Shown: piece by piece, positions 8,412 through 17,699 of the stretch
Layout of the letters: every line of letters begins with the position of its first letter
Position numbering within the stretch: the first letter of the stretch is position 1
Assembly: GCA_025210805.1 (NCBI GenBank)
Contig: JAOAQX010000001.1
Location: 62,001 to 126,000, forward strand
DNA length: 64,000 nt
From: Flavobacteriales bacterium
GTDB taxonomy: Bacteria > Bacteroidota > Bacteroidia > Flavobacteriales > CAJXXR01
Direction: 5' to 3'
Translations under genes and position numbers: made by a program
Notes under the pieces: model-generated
The model's database searches: none
What the model was told of the DNA's origin: nothing
The model's input: only the letters and a program-made list of their open reading frames with translations

Positions 8412-9350
8412 ATGGATCGAATTAGGATTATAAAAACGATGTCCGAATTAGGGGCAGGAACAAGAGGAGCAAGTTTAGGGTATGATGCCCTTTGGGTGGC
8501 ATCTATCAATGCTGGAAAGAGAGATTTTTTTAATCAATTTCCTACCACAAGTGTGGCTGTAAGAAATGATTTATTGTTTGATGAAACCGATACGCCTCAA
8601 GCAAAATATTTAGAAGGAATTGCCGAGGTGTATGAAAATTTGTCTCAAGAAGTGCAAAATGCTTTTGAAAACAAAGAATTTCCGATCCTTATTTCTGGAG
8701 CACATTCGGTTTCTGGAGGAACAATAAAAGGAATTGCAGATGCTTTTCCTGATGCAAATATCGGGGTTGTATGGATAGATGCTCATGCCGATATCCATTC
8801 GCCATACACTTCTCCAAGTGGAAATGTACACGGTATGCCATTGGCAACAGCATTATGTCTTAATGATAATGAATTCCAGTTGGATGACCGAGTAATTGAC
8901 CCTAAAACGAAAGAAATTTGGGATGAATTGTGTGGTGATAAACCTAGAATTTCTCCAGATGATTTGGTGTATTTTGCGGTAAGAGATACCGAAATTCCTG
9001 AAGATGAGATTATAGAAGATTTGGGAATTAAGAATTTCACGGTAGAAGAAGTGAGAATGAAGGGGCCCAAGAAATGTGTGAACGAAGCTCTTGAAAGTTT
9101 GAATCATTGTGATATTCTCTATATCTCGTTTGATGTAGATAGTATGGATTCTATGATTTCAAAAGGAACAGGAACACCTGTTTTAAACGGACTTACTCAA
9201 GTGGTAGCGGAAAAGATTATTTATTACCTTTTCCAGTCTCAAAAGGTGGCTTGTTTTGAAATGGTAGAAATCAATCCAACCTTAGATGATAAAGAAAATA
9301 AAATGGCAGAAACAGCCTTTTCCATTTTGGAAAAAATAGTAAAAATGTAA
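8412..9350 (+). CDS. Arginase
   Basis: This 312-residue cytoplasmic enzyme belongs to the ureohydrolase family and most likely hydrolyses arginine to ornithine and urea. The binuclear Mn ligands are visible: His98 in SGAHSVSGGT, Asp123/His125/Asp127 in WIDAHADIHSP, and Asp241/Asp243 in SFDVDSMD. The start MDRIRIIKTMSELGAGTRGAS is typical of Bacteroidota arginases rather than formimidoylglutamases. It precedes argS by 4 bp, so arginine use and charging are co-expressed. A polyamine operon lies 2.6 kb further on; ornithine could feed it, but no ornithine or arginine decarboxylase is in the window. Confidence 0.88.
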   Translation: MDRIRIIKTMSELGAGTRGASLGYDALWVASINAGKRDFFNQFPTTSVAVRNDLLFDETDTPQAKYLEGIAEVYENLSQEVQNAFENKEFPILISGAHSVSGGTIKGIADAFPDANIGVVWIDAHADIHSPYTSPSGNVHGMPLATALCLNDNEFQLDDRVIDPKTKEIWDELCGDKPRISPDDLVYFAVRDTEIPEDEIIEDLGIKNFTVEEVRMKGPKKCVNEALESLNHCDILYISFDVDSMDSMISKGTGTPVLNGLTQVVAEKIIYYLFQSQKVACFEMVEINPTLDDKENKMAETAFSILEKIVKM

Positions 9351-9354
9351 GCTT

Positions 9355-11133
9355 ATGCAACAAATAGAAAATATACTTACCAGTCAAGTTCAAAAAGTAG
9401 TAGAAGAACTTTACGGACTAGAAAATGCACCAATTTCTTTTCAGAAAACAAGAAAAGAATTTGAAGGAGATATTACTTTAGTTACTTTCCCTTTTCTAAA
9501 AGCAGCTAAGAAAAAACCAGAGATGGTGGGTGAAGAAATTGCTCACAAACTTATGGAGATTGAACCTAAAGTAGTAGGTTTTCAAGTAGTAAAAGGTTTT
9601 TTGAATCTTTCAATTTCTGATGAGTACTGGAAATCCATTTTAGCAGAATCTCTTAAAAAAGAAAACTATGGGTGGCAAAAAGCCAATGAAACATCAGAAA
9701 CTGTTTTGGTGGAATTTGCATCACCTAATACAAATAAACCACTTCACCTAGGTCATATACGAAATATCCTTTTGGGGTATTCTGTTTCTCTTATCAATGA
9801 GGCAGCAGGAAATTATGTAAAGAAAGTACAAGTGATCAACGATCGTGGAATTCATATTTGTAAGTCTATGTTGGCTTGGCAAAAATATGGAGCTGGAGAA
9901 ACACCAGAATCTTCGGAAATGAAAGGGGATCATTTAGTAGGAAAATACTATGTGAAATTTGATCAGGTTTATAGAGAAGAAATCAAGGCATTGAAGGAAA
10001 AAGGTATGGAGGAAAAAGAAGCGAAAGCTCAAGCTCCAATCTTTTTAGAAGCCCAAGAAATGCTTAGAAAATGGGAAGGAAATGATCCCGAGATCATGAA
10101 GCTTTGGGAAATGATGAATCAATGGGTTTATGATGGCTTTGAGGTGACCTTTAAAAGAATGGGGGTAGGGTTTGATAAAAATTATTACGAATCAGATACC
10201 TATATTCTTGGGCGTGATGTGGTTTTGGAAGGTCTGGAGAAAGAAGTTTTCTATAGAAGAGAAGATCAATCTGTATGGTGTGATTTAACAGATAAAAAGC
10301 TGGATGAAAAGCTTGTTTTACGTTCAGATGGGACTTCAGTGTATATGACACAAGACATTGGAACAGCCATAGAGCGTCATAAAGATTTTTCTTTTAATAA
10401 GATGATTTATACCGTAGGTGATGAACAGAATTATCACTTCAAAGTACTCTTTTTAATTCTAGAAAAATTGGGATACTCATGGGCACAAAACTGCTCGCAT
10501 CTTAGTTATGGAATGGTCGATTTGCCTTCGGGAAAAATGAAATCTCGAGAAGGAACGGTGGTAGATGCAGACGATTTAATGGAAGCCATGTTTCTTGAAG
10601 CTCAAAAACAAGGAGCAGAGCGAGGTTCTTATGAAGGAGTAGATGCAAAACTCCAAGAAGAACTGAATGAAATCATCGGACAAGGTGCTTTGAAATATTA
10701 TATACTAAAAGTGGATCCTAAGAAGCGAATGACTTTTAATCCAGATGAATCTGTAGATTTACAGGGAAATACGGCTCCGTTTATCCAGTATGCACATGCA
10801 CGTATTTGCTCGATTCTTAGAAAATATGAAGGAGTAGAGAATGTGGATATCCACAAGGCAGAACTCGATACTTATGCCAAAGGATTGGTAAAACTCATTT
10901 ATGATTATCCAGAGGTTATTCAGTTAGCTGCTCAAGAATCTAGCCCAGCTTTGATTGCTAATTATACCTATGATTTGGTGAAGAATTTTAATCATTTTTA
11001 TCAAAACTCACCAATCTTGAGCCTAGAAGATGAAAATCTGAAGGCTTTGAGAATCAATGTATGTCAATCGGTAGCTAAAATTATTAAATCTTCTATGAGT
11101 TTATTAGGAATTCAAGTTCCCGATAGAATGTAG
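9355..11133 (+). CDS. argS: Arginyl-tRNA synthetase
   Basis: This 592-residue class I synthetase charges tRNA-Arg. The N-terminal additional domain is residues 1-110, the HIGH motif is HLGH at 131-134 within SPNTNKPLHLGHIRN, and the KMSKS-equivalent region is GKMKSREGTVV. The C-terminal DALR anticodon-binding domain contains IQYAHARICSILRK and ends with the usual GIQVPDRM. The length is normal. It follows the arginase gene by 4 bp and ends about 100 bp before a bidirectional terminator. Confidence 0.95.
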   Translation: MQQIENILTSQVQKVVEELYGLENAPISFQKTRKEFEGDITLVTFPFLKAAKKKPEMVGEEIAHKLMEIEPKVVGFQVVKGFLNLSISDEYWKSILAESLKKENYGWQKANETSETVLVEFASPNTNKPLHLGHIRNILLGYSVSLINEAAGNYVKKVQVINDRGIHICKSMLAWQKYGAGETPESSEMKGDHLVGKYYVKFDQVYREEIKALKEKGMEEKEAKAQAPIFLEAQEMLRKWEGNDPEIMKLWEMMNQWVYDGFEVTFKRMGVGFDKNYYESDTYILGRDVVLEGLEKEVFYRREDQSVWCDLTDKKLDEKLVLRSDGTSVYMTQDIGTAIERHKDFSFNKMIYTVGDEQNYHFKVLFLILEKLGYSWAQNCSHLSYGMVDLPSGKMKSREGTVVDADDLMEAMFLEAQKQGAERGSYEGVDAKLQEELNEIIGQGALKYYILKVDPKKRMTFNPDESVDLQGNTAPFIQYAHARICSILRKYEGVENVDIHKAELDTYAKGLVKLIYDYPEVIQLAAQESSPALIANYTYDLVKNFNHFYQNSPILSLEDENLKALRINVCQSVAKIIKSSMSLLGIQVPDRM

Positions 11134-11230
11134 TACCAATACTTACGCTTCTAGTTGTAATTTTTCCACAAGTATGATTTCTAAACATAGAGACATCAGA
11201 GGGAAATTGTAGAAGTACATGCATAAAAAA

Positions 11231-11265
11231 AAGCGGAAATTCAAAATGAATTTTCGCTTTTTTTA
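11231..11265. terminator. Bidirectional intrinsic terminator
   Basis: AAGCGGAAATTCA (11231-11243) pairs with TGAATTTTCGCTT (11247-11259, one G-T pair), with A and T runs on either side. It serves argS on the plus strand and the secreted protein gene at 11287 on the minus strand. Confidence 0.85.
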
Positions 11266-11286
11266 TACCTCTATTGAGCATAAAAA

Positions 11287-11796
11287 CTATTTTTTCTCTA
11301 CAGCCTTAAAGGTTGTTTGAAGAAAAATTTGTTTCCAGTTATTATTTTCATAAAAACCAACAGTGAGTTTATAAGTATTCTCATCTATATATTCCCAAAG
11401 GTCTGTTACTCTAAAGTTTTGATATTGATATTGGTACATTAGGTTTCTTCCGAGTCCAAAAACACTTCCTTTGGTAAGGTTTCCTTGATAATCAAACTCC
11501 CAAAATCGTATAATTCCGTTTTCTTTTTCAAATTGTCTGATTCCATGGTTTCTATCACCTACTTTAGCCGTTTTTTCGTCTATAATACCTTTGGTTTTTA
11601 CCACAATAACTTTTCCATTTGCTCCATATTCAAAAGAACTTTCTTGGATGAAAGGTTTTCCATTTTCCCATTTTCCTTCAGCTTTCCATGTTCTATTGAC
11701 TAGATTAGAAAAAATGGATAACTGCTCATTCTGAGCAAATACAGAAGCAGATGAAATAAATAATAATAAAGTAAGAAGTGTTTTTTTCATTTTCAT
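11287..11796 (-). CDS. Secreted hypothetical protein
   Basis: This 169-residue protein has a signal peptide (LLTLLLFISSASVFAQ). The mature part, starting NEQLSIFSNLVNRTWKAEGKW, has alternating strands with many aromatic residues (IIRFWEFDYQGN, NLMYQYQYQNFRVTDLWEY) and looks like a small all-beta, calycin-like domain of the DUF1579 kind. Either Met at 11796 or at 11790 could be the start. It is monocistronic, with a -7 box upstream and a terminator downstream. I cannot name a function. Confidence 0.65.
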   Translation of the reverse strand: MKMKKTLLTLLLFISSASVFAQNEQLSIFSNLVNRTWKAEGKWENGKPFIQESSFEYGANGKVIVVKTKGIIDEKTAKVGDRNHGIRQFEKENGIIRFWEFDYQGNLTKGSVFGLGRNLMYQYQYQNFRVTDLWEYIDENTYKLTVGFYENNNWKQIFLQTTFKAVEKK

Positions 11797-11817
11797 TTTG
11801 CTAAATCATAATTTGTA

Positions 11818-11825
11818 CAAAAATA
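11818..11825 (-). promoter_or_regulatory. -7 box of the secreted protein gene
   Basis: TATTTTTG on the minus strand is an exact TAnnTTTG match, 21-28 bp upstream of the two candidate starts. Confidence 0.5.
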
Positions 11826-11986
11826 GAAGATTTTATACATAAAAATAAGATTTTTCTTTTAACAGTGGCAAATTGAAACTAAATAGAATGTCTTAGTGGT
11901 CTAAGTGAGCATTGGTGTTTGTTTAGGTAATACGAATCAAATATTGAATAAATTGATTAGTTTAGCTCATAATTATTGAAAATAAG

Positions 11987-12364
11987 ATGAATAAACATTT
12001 GGGAAATCAAGTAACGATTGATTTTTATGATTGCTCTTATTCTGTCATAAATTCTGTAGAAAAAATAACGGAAATTATGGAAGGAATCGCTAAATATATG
12101 GGCTTGCATATTGTAAATACTACTATTCATGCCTTTTCTCCTATCGGGGTGAGTGGAGTAGTTGTTATAGAAGAAAGTCATATTGCGGTGCATACTTGGC
12201 CAGAATATGGTTTTGTAGCAATTGATTTTTTTACGTGTAATCAAACCGTGGAGATCCTTAAAGCAAAAGCTTGGTTAAAAGAACAATTAGAATCTCAAAA
12301 AGAAGAAATTCAAGAAATTAAAAGAGGTAATCCTGCATTTTTAAACAAAAAAACTCCTGTATAG
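11987..12364 (+). CDS. speD: S-adenosylmethionine decarboxylase proenzyme
   Basis: This 125-residue protein makes decarboxylated AdoMet, the aminopropyl donor for spermidine. It belongs to the small prokaryotic class: autocleavage is expected at Glu63-Ser64 in IEESHIAVHTWPE, producing the pyruvoyl group, with His69 and Cys84 (FFTC) in their standard positions. It is the first gene of a four-gene cluster, 3 bp before DUF4178 and ending with the membrane-bound aminopropyltransferase at 13604, which is a natural user of its product. Confidence 0.93.
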   Translation: MNKHLGNQVTIDFYDCSYSVINSVEKITEIMEGIAKYMGLHIVNTTIHAFSPIGVSGVVVIEESHIAVHTWPEYGFVAIDFFTCNQTVEILKAKAWLKEQLESQKEEIQEIKRGNPAFLNKKTPV

Positions 12365-12367
12365 ATC

Positions 12368-12841
12368 ATGTTTTGGAAAAATAAGAATAGTCAATTGGAT
12401 GATTGGAAAATTGGTGATCAGATTAAATATATGTCTGAAAAATGGGAAATTATTGCCAAAGATAGATATGAATGGATTCCTTCGGGAAACAGTGTTGAAT
12501 ACACCTTAAAAAGTGGATTTGATGAAATGTTTCTAGAGGTGGAAAAAGAAAAAGATCAGTGGGAACTTACTTTAACAAGAAAAATAGATCTTGGTCTCGA
12601 TGAAATGAAAGAAGCTTTGGAGAATAAAGAATTTGAATACCAAGGAATGTTTTATGAGCTCGAAGAAAGTTATAAAGGAATTTTTAGCTCAGAAACCAAT
12701 AATTTGGGAAGAGAAAGGGTTGAGGAGTTTGTATTTTATTCTGATGAAAATCAGCTAATTTGTATCAGTTATTGGGGGCAGGATGATTATGAAGCTCATT
12801 TTGGAAAAGAAATAAGCATTAACGAAATAAAGAAAAAGTGA
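12368..12841 (+). CDS. DUF4178 domain protein
   Basis: This 157-residue protein has no signal peptide. The region WKIGDQIKYMSEKWEIIAKDRYEW followed by EYTLKSGFDEMFLEVEKEKDQWELTLTRKI matches the DUF4178 pattern, a beta-rich domain. From general knowledge DUF4178 recurs next to SpeD, aminopropyltransferases and small membrane proteins in many bacteria, so it belongs to a polyamine-linked envelope system of unknown chemistry. Its TGA overlaps the ATG of the next gene by one base (TGATG), which implies coupled translation. Confidence 0.8.
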   Translation: MFWKNKNSQLDDWKIGDQIKYMSEKWEIIAKDRYEWIPSGNSVEYTLKSGFDEMFLEVEKEKDQWELTLTRKIDLGLDEMKEALENKEFEYQGMFYELEESYKGIFSSETNNLGRERVEEFVFYSDENQLICISYWGQDDYEAHFGKEISINEIKKK

Positions 12842-13614
12842 TGAAGAAGGTTTTAATATTTTTTTTAAGTTTTACTGCACTATTTTTAAGTAGTTGTGGA
12901 AGTAGTGAAAAAGAAGTCAAAGAAGTTAAAAACGATAGAATCGACTATTATAAAATGAAATATTCTGGAGATAATTTCTCTATTGTTTTAGATGATATGA
13001 AAATCAATGAAACACAAGAATATTTTGTGCATCAACATAAATATCAAATTTTGATTCTCAAGAACGATTCTCTTCATCAGGTAAATAAAGAATGGGTAGA
13101 TGTAAGTAAAGCCCTCTACGAAAAACATAAAAACGATTTGGGAATGGAAATTCTAACCTTTCAAGATGGAGTCGTTTCCGATGTAGCTCGTCCTGTGGGA
13201 TATGGTTGGGCTGTTGGAAATGAAAAACATGGAGAGTGGGTTGCTCCAGATTCTACGAACAATCATTCATCATCCAATTCCTCAGGTCATAATAGAGTGT
13301 GGAGACATTCCAGTACTAGTCCATTTTTCTGGATGTGGTTGGCATCTTCTGGAAGAAGCGGTGTGAGTCGAGGACATTATAACAATTTCCAAAATCACGC
13401 TACTAGTAACAGAGCATTCTACGGAGCAGGTACTAATGGGAAATATGCTCATGGAACCCGAAGTGAAGAACAAAGAACAGCCAGAGCGGGTTATTATACC
13501 CGAAGAGCCACTTCATCGGCAGTAAAAAATTATAATAATAGAAAAACACGTTCCTCTTCTCGTTATTCAAGAGGTTCATCTACAAGATCACGATCAGGAG
13601 GATTTGGAAAATAA
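12841..13614 (+). CDS. Ser/Arg/Gly-rich lipoprotein of the polyamine operon
   Basis: This 257-residue protein starts with a lipoprotein signal (KKVLIFFLSFTALFLSSCGS). I use the ATG at 12841 rather than the preceding GTG because it overlaps the upstream stop as TGATG. Residues 25-125 form a globular domain; from about 135 the chain becomes low-complexity and basic, rich in Ser, His, Arg, Gly and Tyr, ending RSRSGGFGK. That layout (lipoprotein, Ser/Gly-rich tail, GGFG end) resembles the DUF1190/YgiB-YjfM proteins that sit in comparable polyamine-linked operons in Proteobacteria; homology is not proven. The cationic tail could contact anionic surface polymers. Its last 11 bp overlap the next gene. 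Confidence 0.65.
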   Translation: MKKVLIFFLSFTALFLSSCGSSEKEVKEVKNDRIDYYKMKYSGDNFSIVLDDMKINETQEYFVHQHKYQILILKNDSLHQVNKEWVDVSKALYEKHKNDLGMEILTFQDGVVSDVARPVGYGWAVGNEKHGEWVAPDSTNNHSSSNSSGHNRVWRHSSTSPFFWMWLASSGRSGVSRGHYNNFQNHATSNRAFYGAGTNGKYAHGTRSEEQRTARAGYYTRRATSSAVKNYNNRKTRSSSRYSRGSSTRSRSGGFGK

Positions 13615-15145
13615 ATATTCTAAAAAGCAGAAATCTAGGGCATTAAAAATTGCCCTTTTTGCTACAGGTGTTAGCGGAATTGTAGCCGAGTATATTCTTT
13701 CTACTCTGGCGTCTTATTTTATTGGAAATGCGGTTCTTCAGTTTACACTTATTGTTTCTATTATGCTCTTTTCCATGGGATTGGGGAGTAGGATTAGTAA
13801 GTGGTTTACAAAAGAGGTGATTTTTTATTTTATCATCACAGAATTGGTTTTGTCTGTTTTGGTTTCCTTTTCTGCACTCATCGTTTACACCACATACAGT
13901 TACGGAGATGTTTATTGGATTCTCATCTATTTGCTCTCCATTTTTGTTGGAGTTTTGATAGGTCTTGAAATCCCTTTTGCCACAAGAATCAATGATTCTT
14001 ATGAAAGTTTAAGATTAAACATTTCTAGTATTCTAGAAAAAGACTATTTTGGAAGCCTTATCGGAGGTTTGTTTTTTGCCTTTGTAGGCTTACCCTATTT
14101 TGGTCTTACCTACACGCCTTTTATCCTTGGTTTATTGAATTTATTGATTTCTTTTTATCTATTTCGGGTATTAGATGAATATATCTCCAAGAGGAAAAAA
14201 CGCTGGCTTTGGGTGCTTTACCTTATTATTTTTTCTGTTCAAATGATTGGTTTTGTCTTGGCAGAACCTATCGTAAAATATGGAGAACAAAAGAAATATA
14301 AGGACAAAATAGTTTTTAGTAAACAAACGAAATATCAAAAAATCATTCTAACCGAGTGGCAAAATTGGCACTCATTGTATATCAACGGAAATCAGCAACT
14401 CTCTACTTTTGATGAATTTCTTTATCATGAACCCATGGCACATATACCGTTACTGCTTCAAGGTCATCCAAAAAATATTCTAATTTTGGGTGGAGGAGAT
14501 GGATGCTTATTGCGTGAAATATGGAAATATTCAAATATAGAATCAGTGGACTTAGTAGATTTAGATCCTGAAATGGTTCGATTAGGTAAAGAACATCCCG
14601 TTTTTATTGAGTGGAATAAAAATTCCATGAACGATTCACGATTAAAAACTTATGCCGAAGATGGATTCCAGTTTGTAGAAAAATCTAAGAAAAGTTATGA
14701 TATCGTGATGATTGATTTGCCTGACCCAAATAGTGTAGATATTAATAAGTTATACACAAAAGAATTTTACCGTTTACTAAAATCAAAAGTACAAGCCAAT
14801 GGTTTTATTATCACTCAGGCAGGCTCGCCCTATTATGCTACCAAGGCTTTTTATTGTATCCAAAAAACCATGAAAGCAGCCGGATGGAATACATTGCCCA
14901 TGCACAATCAGGTCCTGACTCTAGGAGAGTGGGGATGGATTGTGGGAAGTCATTTTCCACTTGAAAAAAAGCAGGTTGTAAATCTAGAACCTTCAGAAAA
15001 TTTAAAGTGGCTCAATAAAGAATCGCTTACTCAGTTAGTTTCTTTCGGTAAACCTTTAGTAGATACTTCTGGTATTGAGGTGAATACCATTTTTAAACCT
15101 ACTCTTTATCAGTATTATAAAAAAGGTAATTGGAATTTGTATTAA
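13604..15145 (+). CDS. Membrane-anchored polyamine aminopropyltransferase
   Basis: This 513-residue protein has about seven membrane helices in residues 1-225 and a cytosolic spermidine-synthase domain in 235-500. The donor-binding motif is ILILGGGDGCLLREIWKYS, followed by VDLVDLDPEMVRL, and the catalytic region is YDIVMIDLPDPNSVDINKLY. Fusions of this kind are annotated speE-like but their product need not be free spermidine. The start is a TTG at 13604; no ATG occurs until about codon 57, inside a membrane helix. It overlaps the previous lipoprotein gene by 11 bp. The AGGAGG at 13596-13601 is too close to TTG to act as a normal Shine-Dalgarno and is part of the Gly-Gly codons. Confidence 0.85.
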   Translation: MENKYSKKQKSRALKIALFATGVSGIVAEYILSTLASYFIGNAVLQFTLIVSIMLFSMGLGSRISKWFTKEVIFYFIITELVLSVLVSFSALIVYTTYSYGDVYWILIYLLSIFVGVLIGLEIPFATRINDSYESLRLNISSILEKDYFGSLIGGLFFAFVGLPYFGLTYTPFILGLLNLLISFYLFRVLDEYISKRKKRWLWVLYLIIFSVQMIGFVLAEPIVKYGEQKKYKDKIVFSKQTKYQKIILTEWQNWHSLYINGNQQLSTFDEFLYHEPMAHIPLLLQGHPKNILILGGGDGCLLREIWKYSNIESVDLVDLDPEMVRLGKEHPVFIEWNKNSMNDSRLKTYAEDGFQFVEKSKKSYDIVMIDLPDPNSVDINKLYTKEFYRLLKSKVQANGFIITQAGSPYYATKAFYCIQKTMKAAGWNTLPMHNQVLTLGEWGWIVGSHFPLEKKQVVNLEPSENLKWLNKESLTQLVSFGKPLVDTSGIEVNTIFKPTLYQYYKKGNWNLY

Positions 15146-16209
15146 ATAAGATTTCTTTCCTTTTTAATTTGTTTTACCATTTCAATAACCTGAGGTTGAT
15201 AGTTTATGGCATTCTCTAAAACTTTATCTAGCTTTTCATCTGTGTACTCAGAATAGGTCTTTTTCAATAGTTTTATGTCCAAAGGGGTGTTTTGAAGGGC
15301 TTTTTCTAAGAAAATTGTTTTGTTTATTGTTTGAATAGGTTTATCAAAATAAAAGTAATTAACATTTAATAGTTCTAACAAACTTGAGAGTTCTCTATGG
15401 CTGAATGTTAAACTTGTTAAGAAATGTTGCTCTTTATTTTTTAAGGTAATTACTACGTTTGAGCAAGAAGACCAAGGTAACCTGTGATTGGTGGAATAAA
15501 CGAAAACACATTGTTCAATATTTTTAGTTTCAATGATTTTTTCTTTTTTAGAATAATAGAGAACTAGAGTTTTGTCTGTAAAAGAGTATTTTGATTTCAA
15601 TAATTTTGGTTTAGAAAAATATTGAAACAGGATTACAAAAAAAGGTATCAAGAGGATTATTGTTCCTAAAGTTCCATAAATGAGTATTCGAATAATTGCA
15701 CTACTGTTCTCAAAATTTCCTTGAGAAAATAATACGATTCCCAACGGAAAAAGAAGAATTACAAGATAGATTAAATACTTTTTGAGACTATAATTTCCAA
15801 GCTCAATCTCGTCTTGTAAAATAGGTTGATCTTCCAGTTTGATCGTCGCTTTTAGGTTTCCCTTGAAAAAATCGACTATATAATCATGAGGAGAAAATCC
15901 CTTGTTTAGAGTAACGTCATTGGTGATGATAGCCGTACCAATTTTATCTTTTTTTTGATATATTATTTCAAAACATCCTTCTTTTATACCATAGATGAAT
16001 AAGGATTCAATGTCTTTCTCTTTTGATATTATGAATGTTGGAATTGAGGATGTTAATTTTTTTAAGCTCCTTTGATTCATAATTTCATATTGCTGCCCCC
16101 AGTTAAATTCATTAAAAATATTTATGATTTTTTCAAGACTAACAATTCCATAATCTTCAAAATCTAATTTATTTCTATCGGCATATTGAATTTGTACATT
16201 GCCCTTCAT
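15142..16209 (-). CDS. Two-helix membrane protein with PH-like domain, unknown function
   Basis: This 355-residue protein has an N-terminal soluble region (1-150), two membrane helices near 155-205 (YLIYLVILLFPLGIVLF and ILIYGTLGTIILLIPFFVILF), and a C-terminal region (215-300) reading KYSFTDKTLVLYY...ETKNIEQCVFVY, which looks like a bacterial PH-type domain. The end (EYTDEKLDKVLENAINYQPQV) resembles a helical repeat common at the end of Bacteroidota membrane proteins. It converges on the aminopropyltransferase with a 4 bp overlap. I do not recognise a named family. Confidence 0.6.
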   Translation of the reverse strand: MKGNVQIQYADRNKLDFEDYGIVSLEKIINIFNEFNWGQQYEIMNQRSLKKLTSSIPTFIISKEKDIESLFIYGIKEGCFEIIYQKKDKIGTAIITNDVTLNKGFSPHDYIVDFFKGNLKATIKLEDQPILQDEIELGNYSLKKYLIYLVILLFPLGIVLFSQGNFENSSAIIRILIYGTLGTIILLIPFFVILFQYFSKPKLLKSKYSFTDKTLVLYYSKKEKIIETKNIEQCVFVYSTNHRLPWSSCSNVVITLKNKEQHFLTSLTFSHRELSSLLELLNVNYFYFDKPIQTINKTIFLEKALQNTPLDIKLLKKTYSEYTDEKLDKVLENAINYQPQVIEMVKQIKKERNLI

Positions 16210-16229
16210 ATTTGTCTATCAAATTAACT

Positions 16230-17699
16230 TTAGAGATGTTGATTTTCAATAATTTTAATCAAAGTGACGTTTTGATTTTTTGACAAAATCTCAAATGAAT
16301 GAACCTTACTGTTAAATTGGATGGTATTCTTTGAGTAATTGATAGTTAAAATTTTTTCTGACTGAGAAGCATTGGATAGTAGGAGTAATCTGTTGCCATT
16401 AAATTGTATGGATTGTTTTAATTTTTTAATAATTTCAGAATCCTGAGAATACTGGTTGATAAAGCTAATATTCTTATGGTGAACTCCAGAATTTAATCCA
16501 ATATAATAAGTATTATCCCATCCCCAATCATCGATGTAAAGTGAGGTGGAATTTCCTTTGTATTTGGTGATTTTCTTTGCAATTTCCTTTGCATTTTGGT
16601 TTTCTAATCGGGGTATTGGTTTTACATTAGAAATATTATAGAAAAAGGATAAGCCTACAGAAAGTGATATAAATAAAACAGACAGTTTTCTTGTTTTAAT
16701 AGTGTTCTCCCTAAAGAAGTTGGCTGCAAAAGGCAAACTAAAGATAAGTATTGAGCCAACAAAGCGAGCATGCAATAATAGAGTTCCTTTTAATGAATTA
16801 ATAATGATAAATACGAAAACAATAATGAGTGTTATGAACCAAATATTGGAATAAAATTTAGCATTATTGAATTTTTTAAATTGAAAATGATCTTTTAGTA
16901 AAATAAAGGCAAGTGGAGGTCCAACAGAGATAACCCAAATAAAAGGAAAATACCATATACGTCTCAAATAAGATTCAAAATTGAGATTCGCGTTATTATC
17001 CATAACATCCATAGTCCACTTGAAGTTACCTTCTATTCCAGAGAATGGATTTCCTGTGTTTAAATAACTTTGCATCATCCAAATAAATGGAAATATTAAG
17101 GCGAACACACTAAAAATGAAAGCGTTTTTAAAATCATATTTTACCAAAACAAAAACTCCCCAAATAGCCATAATCATCCAAGCCTCATAGCGAATTCCAG
17201 AAGCAATTGTGATGGCTATTCCAGATAAAATGAGGAATAATGTTTTTCTTTCCTTTATCCATTTAGATAACCAATTCATAGCTAAGACTAAAAAAAATAA
17301 ATAGGGTGTTTCTGATAATCCAAAGAAGCTGTTGCGAAATAAAATAGGTGAAAGTGCTAGGAAAATTGTTGTAATTAACGCTCCATTATTATTAAATTCT
17401 CTTTTTGTAAAATAATAAAATGGAATTAAGGAAAATGTACTTAATATGATATTAAGGATTTTGGGTGTGTAAACTGGGTTTTTCCATATCGCTAATGCTA
17501 ATCCGTTTAAATAAAAATGTAAAGGACCCCAAACACTTTCAGAGATCCATGTTGGATTTTCTATCCAATCTAATGATAGAAAAATCCGAGTAACGGCATC
17601 AGCATCCACAGTTTGTGAAAAGGGCATGATGAGCAGTTTTAATAACAAAATCAATAAAACTAACCCAACTATGTTGAATTTATTAGTGTTTGTCTCCAT
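16230..17699 (-). CDS. GT39-like polyprenyl-sugar glycosyltransferase, integral membrane
   Basis: This 489-residue protein has about ten membrane helices. The first periplasmic loop contains SQTVDADAVTRIFLSLDWI, with the acidic pair expected at the active site of ArnT/PMT-type (GT39 and GT-C) enzymes. Repeated helix-loop segments and a smaller soluble C-terminus (395-489) follow. It probably transfers a sugar from a polyprenyl-phosphate donor to an envelope glycan or protein; substrate unknown. It lies 20 bp upstream of the PH-like membrane protein gene, in the same direction, so they may be co-transcribed. Confidence 0.75.
   Translation of the reverse strand: METNTNKFNIVGLVLLILLLKLLIMPFSQTVDADAVTRIFLSLDWIENPTWISESVWGPLHFYLNGLALAIWKNPVYTPKILNIILSTFSLIPFYYFTKREFNNNGALITTIFLALSPILFRNSFFGLSETPYLFFLVLAMNWLSKWIKERKTLFLILSGIAITIASGIRYEAWMIMAIWGVFVLVKYDFKNAFIFSVFALIFPFIWMMQSYLNTGNPFSGIEGNFKWTMDVMDNNANLNFESYLRRIWYFPFIWVISVGPPLAFILLKDHFQFKKFNNAKFYSNIWFITLIIVFVFIIINSLKGTLLLHARFVGSILIFSLPFAANFFRENTIKTRKLSVLFISLSVGLSFFYNISNVKPIPRLENQNAKEIAKKITKYKGNSTSLYIDDWGWDNTYYIGLNSGVHHKNISFINQYSQDSEIIKKLKQSIQFNGNRLLLLSNASQSEKILTINYSKNTIQFNSKVHSFEILSKNQNVTLIKIIENQHL

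Follow-up and report, generated by a model that had tools for sequence, protein, structure and literature searches.

Which molecule receives the aminopropyl group handled by an operon that pairs an S-adenosylmethionine (AdoMet) decarboxylase with a membrane-embedded relative of spermidine synthase? The question is raised by a 64,000-nucleotide stretch of a Flavobacteriales genome (assembly GCA_025210805.1, contig JAOAQX010000001.1, positions 62,001 to 126,000 of the forward strand), here called the window, in which a tight operon of 3.2 kb, wholly on the plus strand, is made up of speD and genes for a DUF4178 protein, a lipoprotein (LP) and a membrane aminopropyltransferase (APT) (Table 1). 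The close packing noted in the original prediction is confirmed, with a 3-bp gap between speD and the DUF4178 gene, a 4-bp overlap of the latter with the LP gene, and an 11-bp overlap of the LP and APT genes. LP ends in ...STRSRSGGFGK. From sequence comparison, we consider the chances about even that this C-terminal lysine is the aminopropyl acceptor of the APT, rather than that free spermidine is made; the operon may be a dedicated protein-polyamination module, a description for which we see equal prospects either way.

The C-terminal Gly-Lys and the proteins that carry it

Relatives were surveyed in 80 APT loci from GTDB genomes and in 60 related genomes. All 69 LPs that adjoin such APTs end in exactly Gly-Lys (68 distinct sequences, in 23 clusters below 45% identity), and they come from Bacteroidota, desulfobacterial and myxococcal metagenome-assembled genomes, Binatota, Latescibacterota, Nitrospirota, and Sulfidibacter. 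Among 992 other open reading frames (ORFs) of more than 100 aa in the same loci, just 6 end in Gly-Lys and 133 in Lys. Beyond the APT-adjacent set, 13 of 14 further LPs end in GK; the fourteenth, a second copy in its genome (L148:1309-2526), has a long Ser-rich tail and ends in RRK instead. The Ser/Arg/Gly-rich composition of the tail, to which the original prediction had drawn attention, is real, but its informative part is this invariant end, together with the near absence of lysine just before it. In the last 12 residues preceding the terminal Lys, the 68 LPs contain a single Lys against 150 Arg, while the ratio K/(K+R) is 0.77 in LP N-terminal domains and 0.70 in the other proteins of the operon. 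Such exclusion is as expected for regiospecific chemistry.

Because the Gly codons (GGT, GGA, GGC, GGG) and the stop codons vary across LP genes, as do the Lys codons, selection acts on the protein end. Gene overlap as the cause of the Gly-Lys end was ruled out on this ground, and because most related LPs precede DUF350 or other genes. Among operon families of more than two members, LP alone keeps its last residue invariant; the APT comes nearest, with a Tyr end in 74 of 99. In Pfam and NCBIfam, LP matches nothing above cut-off, and its fold finds no PDB entry at E<0.001; the AlphaFold2 model has a pLDDT of 84, which falls to about 50 over the last 20 residues, predicted to be disordered. The literature passages covered, those of PMC11237479 among them, contain no mention of the C-terminal lysine. 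Within that coverage, the specific acceptor proposed here for a known operon class appears to be new.

Lysine also ends partner proteins unrelated to LP. An APT subtype at 31-35% identity to that of the window has no LP in its operon and has instead a 48-78-aa protein with one transmembrane (TM) segment. These proteins end in Lys in six of six lineages, several of them being short ORFs that we called ourselves on unannotated records: FYRYYHK in two relatives, LNSNRVK in Tritonibacter, GGPESGK in Ensifer, ARFRHGK in Gemmatirosa, YTGPSHK or HTGPSHK in Novosphingobium, and SSYGSHK in Burkholderia. A far diverged LP of 510 aa, on an Alteromonas megaplasmid, ends in SSGK. The Alteromonas mediterranea megaplasmid carries an APT-SpeD-DUF4178-LP-DUF350 operon together with a gene annotated as a toxic anion resistance protein (TelA) (L123:6941-13599).

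A different terminal residue is found where the enzyme is different. The E. coli proteins YjfC and YgiC, annotated in RefSeq as peptide-spermidine ligases, are associated with the DUF1190 lipoproteins YjfM and YgiB (Pederick 2023, pmid 36745518, as cited by others). That system resembles the present one in its DUF350, PspA and DUF2170 proteins, in a lipoprotein with an RGGFG-type tail, and in a polyamine being placed on a peptide, as is proposed here, but it uses an ATP-grasp ligase, absent from the window's operon when this was searched, in place of an APT. All 11 ligase-linked DUF1190-type lipoproteins sampled have Gly as their last residue, 10 of them as part of a Gly-Gly pair, and none has Lys; we left out of this count an unrelated hypothetical protein, ending in GS, beside an actinobacterial ligase (Tsukamurella). 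LP, with its Gly-Lys end, is not homologous to them: no profile similarity to DUF1190 was found beyond the signal peptide, although an RGGFG-like motif occurs in both tails. This Lys/Gly split across unrelated scaffolds suggests that the terminal residue matches the need of the enzyme, a Lys amine for the APT and a Gly carboxylate for the ligase.

LP also tracks the enzyme. Among the 60 related genomes, LP is present in 7/7 with an LP-type APT and in 0/53 of the others. Of 21 genomes chosen mostly for having no LP beside the APT, 18 encode one somewhere; solitary APTs do not, therefore, serve as counter-examples, as nearly all such genomes carry LP elsewhere. Three things find their simplest account in the C-terminal residue as acceptor: an invariant Lys, otherwise excluded from the tail end, terminates unrelated partners; Gly takes its place where the linked enzyme is a carboxylate ligase; and LP and APT co-occur tightly. 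Of the polyamine-decorated lipid, peptide or polymer originally envisaged, the evidence points to the co-encoded LP itself.

Operon variants and the supply of substrates

The usual Bacteroidota set is CesT-PspA-DUF4178-LP-DUF350-APT-SpeD-ion channel. The window's APT falls in a six-row clade (SH-aLRT 99) whose operon is SpeD-(channel)-DUF4178-LP-APT, and in most related loci DUF4178 accompanies the APT. The window's operon has no DUF350, as the original prediction had said, and neither has the rest of its genome; PspA, which had also been described as lacking, is present, at a separate locus where it adjoins a CesT/Tir protein and NfeD. That locus (L118:6709-10723, contig 11 of the same genome) continues with a 699-aa flotillin-looking protein that has no Pfam match. 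Since the five nearest APT relatives, the other members of the clade, also lack DUF350 genome-wide, the operon is a reduced, lineage-specific variant, as had been proposed. In a sister pair of the clade (L043:252-6228 and L044:467-4559), DUF350 and APT occur with no LP genome-wide and with a polytopic 556-560-aa protein between them; in L043, DUF4178 is preceded by an ORF of 448 aa that resembles a lipoprotein and has KIK as its last residues. Some same-order relatives (L033-L035) have a SpeD-SpeE fusion, one soluble-looking ORF, in place of the membrane APT.

SpeD matches AdoMet_dc (PF02675, E=4.9e-36) and TIGR03330 above cut-off, and retains the processing serine (ESH). Family and motifs strongly indicate that it makes decarboxylated AdoMet (dcAdoMet), although the TIGR03330 equivalog match is only suggestive for AdoMet rather than ornithine or arginine as the substrate, SpeD paralogues with changed substrate having been demonstrated (PMC10407285). 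The DUF4178 protein scores 51.7 bits against PF13785 (cut-off 25), and the APT scores 142.6 bits against PF01564 and 527.6 bits against NF002956 (PRK03612; cut-off 472). An Rfam search of positions 11000-16500 found no RNA elements.

The genome that holds the window (3.12 Mb, 99.9% complete) has one SpeD, by PF02675 search. A soluble speE elsewhere, for which the original prediction had advised a check, was not found: the one further PF01564 match, a protein of 212 aa that scores 37.7 bits, lacks the D-x-P/T-D-P catalytic motif and was rejected as a second APT. The APT appears, as far as PF01564 and PF02675 can tell and with BpsA-type branched-chain APTs not searched for, to be the sole user of dcAdoMet in the genome, in line with the earlier claim that only the last gene could use it. 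The genome search found no true gene for an ornithine or arginine decarboxylase of the usual, OKR or pyruvoyl (PvlArgDC) types. Of two matches to the Orn/Arg decarboxylase fold, one is a LysA encoded beside an aspartokinase and the other is decarboxylase-like but lies among polysaccharide genes; two OKR_DC matches are by sequence BioF-like and DegT-like; and the best match to NspC, of the carboxyspermidine route, is the polysaccharide-cluster gene at E=1e-4, far below cut-off. An arginase gene lies at 8412-9350 of the window, just upstream of argS (9355-11133), and could yield ornithine, for which the genome search turned up no decarboxylase.

In a genome with a single SpeD, a single true APT and no decarboxylase recognisable as putrescine-forming, de novo synthesis of free spermidine is unlikely, and an ordinary spermidine operon is not our first choice. 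By decarboxylase gene content no putrescine source is evident in the cell, and the seven hydrophobic segments of the APT set it apart from a soluble spermidine synthase. The earlier view of a dedicated, membrane-tied aminopropyl chemistry, probably not directed to free spermidine, gains from these results; of the pair of facts that it had set against itself, the APT does appear to be the only true one encoded, while gene content gives no support to its fully accounting for cellular spermidine. Li and co-workers, writing in 2019 of a polyamine-independent role for AdoMetDC, reportedly linked AdoMetDC to fusions of major facilitator superfamily or other membrane domains with spermidine synthase, in genomes without a spermidine pathway. 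Such fusions reportedly do not rescue an E. coli speE mutant, and spermidine is reported to be absent; a non-putrescine acceptor was reportedly proposed and its identity left open. The window shares with those systems the placing of speD beside a membrane-domain spermidine synthase, and differs in that a specific acceptor is proposed.

The enzyme, its topology and a possible mechanism

The APT domain has the spermidine synthase fold with GGGDG and D-x-x-D-P motifs. Its AlphaFold2 model (pLDDT 92.8) matches 1UIR/3ANX by Foldseek at E 1e-15 to 1e-16, and the nearest solved enzymes include the Thermus thermophilus triamine/agmatine aminopropyltransferase and a thermospermine synthase. D371 and D374 are invariant in 52/52 APTs. 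The position aligned to the acceptor-loop Tyr/Phe of solved, soluble aminopropyltransferases is mostly Leu or Met in these APTs.

Table 1. Features of the operon, in window coordinates
Feature	Position	Strand	Description
speD	11987-12364	+	125 aa; class 1b AdoMet decarboxylase proenzyme; EESH processing site, HTWPE, FFTC motif
DUF4178 protein	12368-12841	+	157 aa; no evident signal peptide; predicted cytoplasmic
LP	12838-13614	+	258 aa; GTG start; lipobox LFLSSC, Cys20; folded domain about 25-237; disordered R/S/G tail
Gly257-Lys258 codons GGA AAA of LP	13606-13611	+	proposed acceptor lysine, from LP homologue conservation
Membrane APT	13604-15145	+	513 aa; TTG start; 7 predicted TM helices (7-222) and C-terminal spermidine synthase-fold domain (about 231-513)
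APT catalytic motif D371-L-P-D374	14714-14725	+	equivalent of D-S/T-S/T-D-P in spermidine synthases, from alignment to solved aminopropyltransferases

Hydropathy of the APT shows seven segments. The N-terminus and loops 2, 4, and 6 have Lys+Arg counts of 2.3-2.8, as against 0.02-0.13 in loops 1, 3, and 5. By the positive-inside rule, a cytoplasmic N-terminus and seven TM helices would put the catalytic domain in the periplasm, probably facing the site of the LP tail. Next to many of these APTs are flavin amine oxidases that carry a lipobox and a Tat-like N-terminus, which again suggests periplasmic amine chemistry. One locus (L025:7174-11302, the same as L070) has a second APT paralogue, a polytopic protein and such a Tat/lipobox-type oxidase (PF01593), tail-to-tail with the LP-APT operon, and the same arrangement recurs at L082, L086, L092, L093, L095, and L097; possibly this set performs a second modification step.

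The mechanism that we infer would begin with decarboxylation of AdoMet by SpeD. The APT, assigned to its class from fold and catalytic Asp residues, would move an aminopropyl group from dcAdoMet onto an amine, and in the central new claim that amine would be the side chain of the C-terminal lysine of LP (...SRSGGFGK-COOH). The TM domain, in which E29, E80, E122, and D147 lie in or beside TM segments and are conserved in 50/52 APTs, may pass the cationic dcAdoMet, though this, like the periplasmic placement, is argued less firmly, from topology. The product would be an aminopropyl- or oligo-aminopropyl-lysine tip on a flexible arm anchored in the envelope. More speculatively, the polycationic tip might bind anionic envelope polymers or lipids, and, in concert with the PspA/CesT proteins, here encoded elsewhere, stabilise or sense the membrane. 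DUF350 has been given up in the window's lineage.

Related systems and competing explanations

The operon class itself is known. Ravi et al. (2024, PMC11237479) describe a CesT/Tir-PspA operon with a 7TM-spermidine-synthase, DUF350, a lipoprotein (Ctha_1186 domain), and DUF4178. The window's operon likewise combines a membrane APT with DUF4178 and a lipoprotein, the last being compared at the level of protein type, and full sets occur in same-family and same-order relatives; it differs from the published operon in the absence of DUF350, the separate locus of the PspA-CesT/Tir dyad, and the inclusion of SpeD. In Pseudomonas aeruginosa, SpeD2-SpeE2 (PA4773-PA4774) is also a speD-APT pair tied to surface polyamine, but SpeE2, a 349-aa thermospermine synthase, acts on free polyamine, and no lipoprotein partner is described in the available passages of PMC11107197. 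A precedent for aminopropylated lysine is provided by diatom silaffins, Ser-rich peptides whose lysine side chains bear aminopropyl units and for which AdoMetDC-APT enzymes of bacterial origin have been implicated (PMC3820600); these are eukaryotic and have many internal lysines, in contrast to the single C-terminal Lys of LP.

Several observations weigh against aminopropylation of LP. The AlphaFold2 secondary structure shows TM5 and TM6 as a single helical run (136-189), which leaves the C-out topology less than certain; dcAdoMet would also need to cross the membrane. Solo APTs with an unlinked LP weaken the argument from the operon, though not that from co-occurrence, and two genomes (G070 and G071) carry DUF350-APT operons with no LP anywhere. 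An invariant C-terminal Lys can, moreover, serve other uses, as in the joining of Braun lipoprotein (Lpp) to peptidoglycan (PMC5442458). That link is the main competitor for the lysine: an L,D-transpeptidase would join it to peptidoglycan, as E. coli Lpp is linked to meso-diaminopimelate through the epsilon-amine of its C-terminal Lys (PMC5442458), and the APT and SpeD would act on something else nearby. LP does share with Lpp a C-terminal Lys, here on what is modelled as a flexible arm, but it is a 258-aa folded protein while Lpp is small, helical, and without an APT or SpeD. We regard such a tether as improbable, for it leaves the enzyme match unexplained: the tracking of the APT by LP, the Lys end of the unrelated one-TM partners and Gly-Gly end of DUF1190, and the presence of SpeD.

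Invariant residues at a C-terminus often act in recognition, and the Gly-Lys at the end of an otherwise R/S/G-rich tail might be a non-covalent tag for the APT, a protease or another partner, with no modification at all. This is unlikely, given that the residue found on unrelated scaffolds suits the chemistry of whichever enzyme class is linked to them and that Lys is kept from the rest of the tail end. Slightly less likely again is aminopropylation of a membrane lipid or envelope glycan, with LP as accessory or sensor; the APT is membrane-embedded and its operon class is tied to PspA and envelope stress (PMC11237479), but the core operon has no lipid- or glycan-handling gene, and neither the invariant lysine nor the GK/GG split would be explained. 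The intact catalytic Asp residues and the kinship to triamine/agmatine and thermospermine enzymes would also suit an APT whose product is spermidine or an analogue, built on an amine that is imported or unusual, and which is anchored for export or sensing. This too is improbable, considering the lack of a known putrescine-forming decarboxylase in the genome and the Leu/Met at the acceptor-loop position.

The proposed aminopropylation of LP turns the acceptor question for membrane-bound spermidine-synthase-like enzymes into one of a single residue, the last lysine, to which each aminopropyl would add +57.058 Da. If the proposal is false, the invariant Gly-Lys end is still in need of explanation. 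If it is true, this would be a new protein modification, and SpeD would have a role outside free polyamines. We see a little less than an even chance that it is a widespread, hitherto unrecognised bacterial post-translational modification, in which membrane APTs aminopropylate the C-terminal Lys of their partners, either lipoproteins or small one-pass proteins, while ATP-grasp ligases would in parallel place spermidine on a C-terminal Gly. Two PspA-linked envelope systems would then share one logic, a lipoprotein capped with polyamine by either of two chemistries, with the last residue, Lys or Gly, telling which enzyme is at work.

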